Assembly: GCA_021785235.1 (NCBI GenBank)
Contig: JAJYGB010000425.1
Coordinates: 1-11,633 of the forward strand
Length of the DNA: 11,633 bases
Reading direction: 5' to 3'
Source of the DNA: Bacteroidota bacterium
GTDB taxonomy: Bacteria > Bacteroidota > Kryptoniia > Kryptoniales > JAKASW01
A program made the position numbers and the translations under genes. Below, piece by piece: positions 3,278-6,756 of this stretch (positions are counted from its first letter, which is position 1; each line of letters starts with the position of its first letter). The notes beneath the pieces were generated by a model, which was not told the DNA's origin, ran no database searches, and worked only from the letters and a program-made list of their open reading frames with translations.

Positions 3278-3323
3278 ATGCAGGCAAGACTATTGTCCTG
3301 CCTGCATCCTGTTTCCTTCCTTT
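3278..3323. terminator. Bidirectional terminator between engB and the cyd-like genes
   Basis: ATGCAGGCA (3278-3286) pairs perfectly with TGCCTGCAT (3299-3307). After one mismatch (A3287/C3298), GAC (3288-3290) pairs with GTC (3295-3297) around a TATT loop. This 12-bp stem lies in the 67-nt gap between two convergent genes. The + strand continues into a T-rich stretch (GTTTCCTTCCTTT, 3311-3323); the minus strand continues with TTGCAAATTT. The U-tracts are interrupted, but position and stem strength fit a shared terminator. Confidence 0.65.
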
Positions 3324-4458
3324 AGGAAGCCTTCGCGGCTTGCTTCTCGACCGCGGCTATCTTCGCTATCATCCATCCCACTACCGCGAGCCCGATCACG
3401 AACAATATCAGGAACGAGATCATGGGGCTCCACTGAGTGTTGACGGGAAGTTTGGAGACATCTTCATATCTGAATATTTCCACGTTCTGCACCCACTGCC
3501 TGCTGATGGCGTTTAGGCTAAGGACGACAACCTGAAGAATCGACGCGAGAATTATCGCTCCTTTTTTCAGCCCCTTCCTCTGTGTGAACAATACGGTAAA
3601 GACGAAACCTGGTGACACGGCAGTAAGACCGAATAAAAAATACACTAGGGGATGGCCGCCGACCTCACTGAGAGTCGATTTCTCCAGCGCCCCGAAAATA
3701 TACCAGCTTCCCATCGCGGCAAACCAAACGAGGCCGACCGCGTACAGGAGGAAGGAGAACCTTCCCGCCCATCTCTTATACTCGTCCGAAGTGTCGCGCC
3801 TTTTGAAGAACACCGCGTCGAAAGCGATGAACACTGCGGTCGTTGTTATCGCAAGCCCGAACATCATCAGCCATCTGGGTATGAGTGTCGGGTCCGCGGT
3901 GTTCAGCCCCGTCCCGGGAACGGCGCCGCCTACGTTTGTCCGGTTGAAAATGTGAATCCAGTCGTTCACGTTTGCCATCATACTGAAATTATTCGCGAAC
4001 AAAAAGCCGATGAATATGAATGCGATGGAACTGACCCAGGCGGAAGCCAGCGCGAATTTCGTGCTCTTATTGTTCTTGACGCTGAGGGAGTAAACGTACA
4101 CTCCGTAATACGCGAATATGAGAATCACGATGACGCTGAACCACGCATGCGCCATGAGTATTCCCGCCGGGTAGTAGAATTGATAGTAACCCACCTGGGT
4201 AAACAGGAGCGGGACTATTCCGAGGTTGACACCCAACGCAACGATGACGGGCATGGTCCGCGAAAGGCGGTGAGCGAGCTCAAGCGAATGGTTCTTCCCG
4301 AACGTCGCAAATATTGCGACAAGTATCATCCCGGCGTACCAGATATTCATCGGGATCATGTGAAGAACGAACCCGAGCACTTTGAAAAACGTGATAAACC
4401 AGAAAGGCGCCGGGTTGCCGAGCGGTGAAACGGGTCCGATCAAGTCCTGGGGGTTCAT
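3322..4458 (-). CDS. CydA-superfamily paralog, second subunit of a cytochrome bd-like oxidase
   Basis: This 378-residue polytopic membrane protein has about nine hydrophobic helices (roughly 20-50, 67-88, 98-125, 135-157, 194-217, 232-255, 269-291, 300-317, 344-368). It is not a canonical CydB. It echoes CydA instead: a His in helix 1 (H33), FANNFSMM after helix 4 (CydA: VANGWMQNP), DPTLIPRW at the start of helix 5 and SRQW (319-322) after helix 8 (CydA: GRQPW). The same P-x-x-I-x-R pattern occurs in its partner (P179/R184 there; P190/R195 here), so the two subunits look like paralogs. It lacks the helix-3 Glu pair of CydA and has H104 there instead, so it may not house the O2 site. Its ATG overlaps the partner's stop by 4 nt (ATGA), with GGAGG 7 nt upstream, so translation is coupled. 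Automatic annotation would probably call it hypothetical. Confidence 0.75.
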   Translation of the reverse strand: MNPQDLIGPVSPLGNPAPFWFITFFKVLGFVLHMIPMNIWYAGMILVAIFATFGKNHSLELAHRLSRTMPVIVALGVNLGIVPLLFTQVGYYQFYYPAGILMAHAWFSVIVILIFAYYGVYVYSLSVKNNKSTKFALASAWVSSIAFIFIGFLFANNFSMMANVNDWIHIFNRTNVGGAVPGTGLNTADPTLIPRWLMMFGLAITTTAVFIAFDAVFFKRRDTSDEYKRWAGRFSFLLYAVGLVWFAAMGSWYIFGALEKSTLSEVGGHPLVYFLFGLTAVSPGFVFTVLFTQRKGLKKGAIILASILQVVVLSLNAISRQWVQNVEIFRYEDVSKLPVNTQWSPMISFLILFVIGLAVVGWMIAKIAAVEKQAAKAS

Positions 4459-5891
4459 TTGGATGCCTCCTCTCTCATTGTCCTGTCCGCGAGCTGTTTG
4501 AAAGGCGATTTGCCAACATTCCCGCCGAATTTCATGCCGGCAGGGCTGGGTTCAGCCAGGGACGCAAGGTATTCTGTGAGCATCGTTGCCTCAGCCTGGG
4601 TCCCGCACCACGGCGGCATGAAAAAGTGTGCTTTGTCGAGGTGGGTGACCACAGTGTGGATCATATCTTTACTCCACCCCCGTGTGAGCTCGGCAACACC
4701 CGAGAAGCCGCTTACTGAGTGGCAATCGTTGCAGTGGTACTGGAAAAGCACCTGACCCACATTTTTCTGTTCATCCAACGGGAGCTGCAGAAGTTTGGCG
4801 TCTTCGATGTTCCCGTCGGCCCCGATGACCTGCGGGTAATGAGCCTTCATAAATGCCTTTGTCCAGGTGCCGCCGTTCAGGTATCCGGTTGCCTGCAGCC
4901 TCGGTATCTCCTGCACAAGTACGTTGTTGCCCGTGACATAGTTATAGATTATATAGGGTTTCCGCACGCCTTCGCGTATGAACTCCCCCGTGCCGGTGGC
5001 GGCGATTCCGAGAAGAAAATACAGAATTGCGAACCCCGGATTGATCCAGCCGGGATTCCGGTATGGACCGAAGAAGAGCATAAAAAAGACGACCGCTGAT
5101 GAGGCGAAAACCAAAATCGACAGGATGTTCAGTGCACTTGCACCGGCGAGTGCCGCCTTTGCGCTCTCGGGTATGTTTATGTACCACCACGCTCCACCGA
5201 TGGTTACCAGGGCAGCTCCGGCCATCGCCCACTTCGAGGTTCTATTCTCCACCAGGGCGCGAAGCTGGCTATCGTTCTTGAGCTTGAACGCTGCGTGGAG
5301 ATAAATGTAGAGCGAAGCCAGCAGAAGAGAAGCGCCTGACCGTGCGATAATCTGCGGAAATGTTTGTGGGTTGAAGAACGCTGCCCACATCCCCTTGTCG
5401 GGAGTCCAATTGCCGATGTCGAGCTGGAAAGCGGTAATCCCCGTGATCAATACAAGGCTGATGTAAGCTGCGACGGCATATATCCAGCCGATCATCTTGT
5501 GTGTCTTAACGTCGAGCCGCCCCCAGTAGTAGTGGAAGATGAAGGCAGAGACTACCTCGAGCACGAAGAACACGTACTCCATGGCCCAACCGAACACGAA
5601 GATGTGTATCAGCGATTCGGTTGCGAGGGGCGAGGCGAGCCCGATCGTCCACCAGATACCAACTCCTGTGATTGCTCCGAATACGACCGTGAGCAGAATG
5701 AAGAATAATGTGTGGGATTTAAGGTAATCAAGAAGGGATTTGTTATTTACTTTGTAGGCATAAGAGACTTCTCCGGCCAGCACGATGCCGCCGCCGACGG
5801 CATAGAGCGAAACGAAGACGTGGATCGTCGCGATCATGGCAATCAGCATCGGAGAAGTAAGGTTCGGAACGTACCACCATGGATAATGCAT
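4455..5891 (-). CDS. Cytochrome bd-like oxygen reductase large subunit with C-terminal cytochrome c domain
   Basis: This 478-residue protein has about eight membrane helices (12-38, 57-82, 92-120, 132-155, 178-203, 218-238, 253-273, 283-304) and then a soluble cytochrome c domain (about 372-445) with CNDCH (387-391) and a distal-ligand motif MPPW (M425). Superfamily features of CydA are visible: helix-1 H24 (E. coli H19), helix-3 E105 and E112 (E112 aligns with E107; E105 is one residue off E99), GRL at 124-126, and REGVRKPY at 306-313 (E. coli EYGRQPW, with E307/R310). The large periplasmic Q-loop of quinol oxidases is missing. R184 and S258 stand where the b558 ligands H186 and M393 would be. 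With the N-terminus periplasmic, as in CydA, eight helices place the heme c domain in the periplasm. I infer an oxidase that takes electrons from c-type carriers. The start is supported by GGAGG 5-6 nt upstream. Confidence 0.85.
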   Translation of the reverse strand: MHYPWWYVPNLTSPMLIAMIATIHVFVSLYAVGGGIVLAGEVSYAYKVNNKSLLDYLKSHTLFFILLTVVFGAITGVGIWWTIGLASPLATESLIHIFVFGWAMEYVFFVLEVVSAFIFHYYWGRLDVKTHKMIGWIYAVAAYISLVLITGITAFQLDIGNWTPDKGMWAAFFNPQTFPQIIARSGASLLLASLYIYLHAAFKLKNDSQLRALVENRTSKWAMAGAALVTIGGAWWYINIPESAKAALAGASALNILSILVFASSAVVFFMLFFGPYRNPGWINPGFAILYFLLGIAATGTGEFIREGVRKPYIIYNYVTGNNVLVQEIPRLQATGYLNGGTWTKAFMKAHYPQVIGADGNIEDAKLLQLPLDEQKNVGQVLFQYHCNDCHSVSGFSGVAELTRGWSKDMIHTVVTHLDKAHFFMPPWCGTQAEATMLTEYLASLAEPSPAGMKFGGNVGKSPFKQLADRTMREEASK

Positions 5892-5949
5892 TTAATCCTC
5901 CAGGGAGATTTTGGTTTATCATGTTAAGGAGCAGGGAAGGTAAGGGGAG

Positions 5950-6033
5950 CGGAGGGTGAGGGACTCGAACCCCCAAGCCCCAAAGGGCGCCGGTTTTCAA
6001 GACCGGTGCATTAGCCAATTCTGCCAACCCTCC
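5950..6033 (-). tRNA. tRNA-Ser (anticodon UGA)
   Basis: The minus strand folds into a complete 84-nt class II tRNA. The acceptor stem is GGAGGGT/ACCCTCC with discriminator G. The D arm (GCA/TGC) has GG in its loop, and the anticodon stem CCGGT/ACCGG carries the loop CTTGAAA, which gives anticodon UGA. A long variable arm (CGCCCTTTGGGGCTT) and a T arm with the TTCGAGT loop complete it. The long variable arm and G discriminator are serine identity features; UGA reads UCA and other UCN codons. The 3' CCA is not encoded (CTC follows), so it must be added by the CCA-adding enzyme. Only 58 nt separate it from the downstream oxidase gene on the same strand. Confidence 0.97.
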
Positions 6034-6046
6034 AGCTTGTGCAATT

Positions 6047-6126: not shown

Positions 6127-6756
6127 CTAATTTCTTTTGAAGATGGCGAAATAGGATCCAAGAGGCAGAGGGTGAGTGAAGCCACCCCGTTTGAGGGACT
6201 GAAGCTCGTCCTGAACTTCGCCCGGGAAACGGTGGATATCCACTTCCCCGATGTGCCCGCTCGGGAGAATTGGAACCGACGACTTGAAAATAGCCGCAGT
6301 CGAGTCGAATGCGGCACCGCTCTTCAGGAGTGCGTACGCCGAGTCAGCATGGGCTGAAGTCGCGCACACAATTTCGGAAATGTCCATTATTTCCGGCTGG
6401 GCCGAGACAACTCTGGCCGTTTGGATGATCCTCATCTGGATTGGCTTGTCATCCAGCGTTGCAGGGGAAAACTTCCACTCCTTTATTCGCTGCACGGCGG
6501 CGGAATCCCACTGTTGGTCGCCGGTGGACCGGGTCAACGTGACGTGCCTGACGGCACCATCTTTGCCAACGAGTATTTCCATCTTGATGTAGAAGTCTCT
6601 GGAATCGAACGCTGGCGGAGGTGGCGGCAGGGTAGCCTTCTCAATCAACGTTGGCGGGATGATCTTAGAATTCAGGCCGTCAAAGGAAGCACAGCCGGCT
6701 ATCAGTGAAGCGGTGCTGAGCAAGACAATGGACATTAACATTTTCAGGCTTGACAT
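6127..6756 (-). CDS. Lipoprotein with TonB C-terminal domain and degenerate parvulin domain
   Basis: This 209-residue protein begins with a signal peptide (MSSLKMLMSIVLLSTASLIAGC) whose lipobox IAGC points to lipidation at C22. After a Pro-rich linker (PPPPP at 44-48) comes a TonB_C-like domain (about 52-116), with VGKDGAVRHVTLTRSTGD, the DSAAVQRIKEWKFSPA core and a final beta strand. Residues about 124-208 resemble a PpiC/parvulin domain: ISEIV, AYALLKSGAAFDSTAAIF, PSGHIGEVD, EVQDELQSLKRGGFTHPL and GSYFAIFK. Both usual parvulin histidines are missing (SHILV became SEIVC; GYHII became SYFAI), so isomerase activity is doubtful and a binding role is likelier. The start has GGGGGAG 6 nt upstream. 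It is a single gene, divergent from rimP and followed by a hairpin. The domain order is inferred by eye, and the cellular role is unknown. Confidence 0.75.
   Translation of the reverse strand: MSSLKMLMSIVLLSTASLIAGCASFDGLNSKIIPPTLIEKATLPPPPPAFDSRDFYIKMEILVGKDGAVRHVTLTRSTGDQQWDSAAVQRIKEWKFSPATLDDKPIQMRIIQTARVVSAQPEIMDISEIVCATSAHADSAYALLKSGAAFDSTAAIFKSSVPILPSGHIGEVDIHRFPGEVQDELQSLKRGGFTHPLPLGSYFAIFKRN

Follow-up and report, generated by a model that had tools for sequence, protein, structure and literature searches.

We analysed a stretch of 11,633 nucleotides from a Bacteroidota bacterium (contig JAJYGB010000425.1, assembly GCA_021785235.1; hereafter, the window), in which two adjacent genes encode a cytochrome bd-like enzyme: a large subunit that resembles CydA and ends in a cytochrome c domain, and a smaller partner (Table 1). 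The two reading frames are joined by a 4-base overlap (ATGA), and a GGAGG-type site lies 5′ of both start codons; scans for promoters and terminators found no more candidates than in shuffled sequences. An initial annotation of this DNA had described a two-gene, heme c-carrying bd-like system, an observation that we confirmed, and had interpreted it as a non-quinol oxidase, an interpretation that our results support. The residues it had named (H24, E105, E112, R184, S258, E307, R310, CNDCH at 387-391 and MPPW at 425-428) all lie at those positions.

Table 1. Features of the oxidase gene pair, with positions in the window. Fractions give conservation in near + distant aligned homologues of the same subunit.
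Feature	Position	Strand	Description
Large subunit, heme c CydA-like protein	4455..5891	-	478 amino acids; 8 predicted transmembrane (TM) helices, then a cytochrome c domain at the C-terminus
H24 codon	5820..5822	-	Equivalent of E. coli CydA H19, a high-spin heme ligand (profile alignments); 81/81 + 23/23
Codons E105 to E112	5556..5579	-	Equivalents of E. coli E99/E107 (hidden Markov model [HMM] alignment); 81/81 + 23/23
Codons E307 to R310, in REGVRKP	4962..4973	-	Equivalents of E. coli E445/R448; 80/81 + 23/23
CNDCH, heme c attachment motif, residues 387-391	4719..4733	-	80/81 + 23/23
MPPW, residues 425-428	4608..4619	-	M425, putative distal heme c ligand; 80/81 + 23/23
Small subunit, apparent degenerate CydA paralogue (CydA′-like)	3322..4458	-	378 amino acids; 9 predicted long helices
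H33 codon, small subunit	4360..4362	-	Aligns with large-subunit H24 (hhalign); 65/65 + 21/21

The large subunit matched the Pfam profile Cyt_bd_oxida_I (PF01654) at E = 4.7e-9 and 35.7 bits, above the cut-off of 26.2, and a profile built from large subunits aligned with a CydA profile in hhalign (E = 3.7e-15). Scanning the single protein against NCBIfam and searching its sequence against PDB gave zero matches each, and the only match of the large-subunit profile in PDB was a weak one, to cytochrome c-552 (E = 0.027). We aligned 81 large subunits (that of the window and those of 80 loci; the near set) and 23 distant relatives. H24, E105, E112, H131 (the equivalent of E. coli H126), R184 and R306 were identical in 81 out of 81 near sequences, and E307, R310, CxxCH and M425 were kept in all but one, L054. 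In that metagenome-assembled genome, the large-subunit gene (4612-6038) is broken into two overlapping frames, by a sequencing error or a real frameshift. All 23 distant relatives carried H24, E105, E112, H131, R184, E303, R306, E307 and R310, together with one aligned CxxCH and M425. The CydA superfamily core proposed in the initial annotation is thus borne out by the PF01654 match and by the core ligands H24, E105, E112, E307 and R310, which were retained, along with CxxCH and the following methionine, in at least 103 of the 104 aligned large subunits, window included. E. coli E99 fell opposite E92 in the profile alignment and opposite E105 in the HMM alignment; because E105 is invariant in the near set while E92 varies (64 out of 81), we took E105 as the E99 equivalent.

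Two sites of canonical CydA are missing from the large subunit. The Q-loop, claimed to be absent, indeed has no counterpart in the alignment, nor does its residue E257, which was kept in 60 out of 60 canonical CydA proteins; in the predicted model, about 13 residues separate helix 6 from helix 7. With the Q-loop intact, hhalign left TM8 unaligned, and TM8 aligned once the Q-loop columns had been cut from the canonical profile. Also missing are the two ligands of low-spin heme b558, H186 and M393, each present in 60 out of 60 canonical proteins. Here the loss itself stood and the assigned positions needed correction: in the profile alignment (80 of 81 large rows), H186 falls opposite A183, adjacent to R184, and M393 opposite L254 rather than S258. 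As none of A183, R184, L254 and S258 is a heme ligand, the shifted positions leave the conclusion unchanged. We also considered H199 and H131 as a new heme ligand pair and rejected it. The H199 column, an invariant His in the near clade, holds T (17), S (3), A, V or L in the 23 distant relatives and never H, so H199 is not a general heme ligand.

CxxCH and M425, found in 80 out of 81 near and 23 out of 23 distant large subunits, uphold the claim of a terminal cytochrome c domain; the window protein matched the Pfam profile Cytochrome_CBB3 slightly below the cut-off of 27 (26.9 bits, E = 6.2e-6). The predicted structure contains eight long helices, which places the C-terminus in the periplasm, as the initial annotation had argued from an even helix count. 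Among the 23 distant relatives, ten had one CxxCH, ten had two and three had three. In the 13 relatives with two or three (L186-L188, L190-L193, L195-L199 and L209), these motifs lie C-terminal to the CydA core; each of these proteins has the same type of partner gene, and a stepwise enlargement of a periplasmic heme c relay is possible.

The small partner, whose kinship the initial annotation had not described, appears to be a degenerate duplicate of CydA and not a CydB. A Pfam scan gave nothing at E ≤ 1e-3, hence no CydB match; single matches in NCBIfam (far below the cut-off) and in a PDB search with the small-subunit profile (E = 0.93) were judged to be chance. In a Foldseek search, the best seven rows were CydA chains, with a CydB chain eighth. 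The helix-1 histidine H33 was retained in 86 out of 86 small subunits (65 near and 21 distant; the distant residue counts omit the truncated L187 and the over-long L195). No acidic residue stands opposite E105 or E112 in the profile alignment. Near-clade small subunits also lack an acidic counterpart of E307, the window protein having Q321 and Q324 at the E307 and R310 positions, where distant small subunits have D (15 out of 21) and R (21 out of 21). R320 was present in 64 out of 65 near sequences, with one undetermined residue, and in all 21 distant ones.

A small gene (E ≤ 1e-5) lay beside the large gene in 64 out of 80 loci, downstream in 61, including L053, where it sits inside an over-long frame, and upstream in three (L064, L068 and L077). 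Four of the other 16 loci halt at a contig end within about 150 bases of the end of the large gene. The remaining 12 belong to gut-type planctomycetes, and a genome-wide search located the small gene on another contig in 11 of these 12 genomes, the search of G299 giving no match. All 23 distant large loci had a small-type gene. Distances between large proteins correlated with those between small proteins (r = 0.90, n = 63, without L053 and L054; 0 out of 2000 permutations), a correlation that shared ancestry alone can explain. The 80 loci are the best of 179 relatives found in a genome-contig scan; in the protein database (E ≤ 1e-3), we found at least 2680 large homologues (7997 candidates scored) and at least 930 small ones (7999 scored), the scored candidates being those that shared most words with the query. 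By their record titles, the 80 loci came from Kryptoniota, Acidobacteriota, Chloroflexota, Zixibacteria, Planctomycetota, Armatimonadota, Bipolaricaulota, Riflebacteria, WOR-3 and other phyla; the heme c CydA-like family is thus present in many uncultured phyla.

A tree of 108 rows, covering roughly helices 1-5, included 44 out of 104 large subunits, 30 out of 86 small subunits, 23 out of 60 canonical CydA proteins and 11 out of 11 heme c-free CydA-like proteins. Each group splits off by one branch, with support of 100/99, 100/100, 100/99 and 98/89, respectively. The large subunit thereby stands apart from long heme c-free CydA-like proteins, from its small partner and from quinol-oxidising CydA, inside which a placement would have spoken against the initial annotation. 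Because long branches meet, the branching order among the groups is unsure. The heme c-free group includes L189, of just 474 amino acids, and long CydA-like proteins (about 620-1050 amino acids; L180-L183 and L200-L205) with no CxxCH and no small-type partner within the fetched stretch; our guess is that the long proteins are of the OR-N type.

Compared with canonical CydAB (the qOR family; E. coli CydA, NC_000913), the window enzyme shares the helix 1-4 core and the equivalents of H19, E99, E107, E445, R448 and H126. It differs in lacking the Q-loop, H186 and M393, in its fused heme c and in having a CydA-like partner in place of CydB; its large subunit has eight helices, whereas canonical CydA has nine. 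Archaeal CydAA′ likewise consists of two CydA-type subunits; it is a quinol oxidase and is not known to carry heme c, nor are OR-N proteins. Murali, Gennis and Hemp reportedly defined in 2021 an OR-C group that carries heme c. Set against the description of this group, the window pair is alike in its CydA core and active-site ligands, in having no quinol site and in its heme c motif, and we found no difference. The pair therefore fits the published OR-C group and, on that definition, would be a further member of a kind of enzyme already known from genomes.

The names qOR, OR-C and OR-N appear in two papers (PMC10839748 and PMC13189123), OR-C and OR-N profiles are named in a third (PMC11707229), and three others discuss OR-N or bd-like proteins (PMC12342949, PMC12324825 and PMC3578206). 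The OR-N or bd-like proteins of Nitrospira and Nitrospina similarly lack a quinol site, with cytochrome c as the proposed donor and a CydA + CydA′ arrangement also proposed (PMC10839748, PMC12342949 and PMC3578206). The Nitrospina bd-like protein is described there as having 14 predicted helices, three of them replacing the Q-loop (PMC3578206), compared with eight helices plus a heme c motif in the window large subunit. No biochemical study of a heme c bd enzyme was found among the literature matches listed (open-licence papers, titles and abstract starts).

We consider it likely that the product of the gene pair is a membrane-bound oxygen reductase, a member of the bd superfamily whose electron donor is a c-type cytochrome, not quinol. 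The core ligands, the loss of the quinol site and of the b558 ligands, the heme c motif, the fold and the pairing are read from sequences or predicted models. From them we infer heme content, electron donor and direction, direct transfer, proton uptake, activity and OR-C membership, as follows. A periplasmic c-type carrier would reduce heme c, bound by the periplasmic C-terminal domain of the large subunit, and heme c would pass electrons directly to two high-spin hemes held by the large subunit between helices 1, 3 and 8 through H24, E105/E112, E307 and R310. This pair would turn O2 into water with protons drawn from the cytoplasm, and the small subunit, as a CydA copy without acidic ligands, would replace CydB as structural partner. 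If so, the bd scaffold can support a copper-free cytochrome c oxidase that reduces O2, and the low-spin heme and quinol site would be add-ons to a minimal two-heme engine. Several family members are labelled "cytochrome ubiquinol oxidase subunit I" at source, a name that, given a cytochrome c donor, would misstate the electron donor.

Cytochrome b matches in the host genomes make a cytochrome c pool plausible: Cytochrom_B_N_2 was matched in 26 out of 26 first-set genomes (NrfD in 23 out of 26), although cytochrome b complexes of other kinds can contain this domain too. Canonical quinol-type CydA was seen in 3 out of 23 genomes, all Kryptoniota-type (G003-G005; L082-L084). We also examined 16 gut-type planctomycete genomes chosen for carrying the gene (G295-G309 and G021; L056-L058, L061 and L064-L075), four of them ruminant-gut records by title or code and twelve tentatively assigned to the termite gut from their isolate codes. 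Heme-copper oxidase (COX1) was matched in 0 out of these 16 genomes, nor was it matched in G012, and all 17 genomes had one CydA-family match each, of the heme c frame size. The ligands and heme c motif were complete in all 16 gut-type planctomycetes, in which cytochrome b was matched in 12; their small gene is often upstream or on a separate contig. The heme c bd-like enzyme may be the only oxidase in some of them, AOX not having been searched for. A literature search joining Thermoguttaceae with cytochrome, gut and oxidase found nothing.

Several results weigh against oxidation of a c-type cytochrome by this pair. Model confidence is low across the heme c domain (pLDDT 47-71 for ten-residue blocks of residues 381-430), and TM7 aligned weakly, so the absence of the distal b558 ligand rests on the alignment. 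Presence is patchy, since among G001 and its relatives (41 genomes) the large profile matched 21, two of them as short fragments, and none of the other 20. CxxCH proteins occurred in 0 of the 36 other listed neighbour clusters present in at least three loci, and cytochrome b was unmatched in 4 out of 16 gut-type planctomycetes. COX1 was matched in 24 out of 26 first-set genomes, so the bd-like enzyme need not be the main oxidase there. Finally, the invariant H33 of the small subunit could, judging from conservation, mean a further heme.

This last point underlies a somewhat unlikely alternative, in which a b-type relay, held by the small subunit at H33 or by other large-subunit ligands, carries electrons between heme c and the oxygen site. 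The retention of H33 in every small subunit, aligned with H24, speaks for an extra heme there, as do the near-universal R320 and the distant D and R at the E307 and R310 positions. The small subunit nevertheless lacks acidic counterparts of E105 and E112 and, in the window, has glutamines at the E307 and R310 positions; a conserved His may serve packing or proton transfer, and the large-subunit candidate H199 is confined to the near clade (0 out of 23 distant relatives). We think it unlikely that the enzyme is mainly a protective, cytochrome c-linked reductase scavenging O2, NO or peroxide and not a respiratory oxidase. Its retention in gut-type planctomycetes without a COX1 match would suit such a role, as would detoxification by canonical bd enzymes, described in PMC10839748 and PMC8225038; yet the COX1 matches of the first-set genomes indicate that many hosts respire oxygen, and scavenging and respiration are not mutually exclusive. 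Reverse electron flow, or an ACIII-like cytochrome c:quinone reductase as formerly proposed for the Nitrospina bd-like protein, seems very improbable. Still less credible is the view that this is a normal quinol-oxidising cytochrome bd whose Q-loop has been shortened: membership of the CydA superfamily agrees with it, but it is already contradicted by the absence of the Q-loop, the b558 ligands and a Pfam CydB match, by the fused heme c and by the separate tree branch.

Beyond cytochrome c oxidation itself, we tentatively propose a bd-type cytochrome c oxidase of new electron-entry design, with somewhat less than even confidence. Heme c would feed the high-spin pair directly, the invariant R184 would occupy the vacated b558 site, and H33 of the degenerate CydA copy would possibly bind a heme. 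This copper-free enzyme would be the sole respiratory oxygen reductase of gut planctomycetes of the termite and ruminant types, working at traces of oxygen.

Both flanks of the gene pair consist of housekeeping genes. One carries what we take from the translations to be rpsK, rpsD, rpoA, rplQ and an engB-type GTPase, the last with a Pfam match to MMR_HSR1; the other carries tRNA-Ser, a TonB_C protein (Pfam) and, presumably, rimP, nusA and infB. The flanking gene set was found again in Kryptoniota-type contigs, and the window is collinear with loci L001-L004 (blastn). The closest named locus, L001 (Candidatus Kryptoniota isolate Ww171), has a large protein of 91% identity (best 80 of 179 relatives) and 78.5-83.4% identity to the window in DNA (blastn). 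Representatives of nine neighbour clusters were scanned with Pfam; the matches were to ACR_tran, HlyD, Bac_transf, zf-HC2, DHO_dh, ABC_tran and DUF1559-type genes, and the two unmatched representatives (L038 and L039) turned out to be frames that run antisense to the oxidase genes. The TonB_C gene adjoining the oxidase pair (6127-6756, reverse strand) encodes a 209-amino-acid protein with a weak C-terminal SurA/PPIase-like match.
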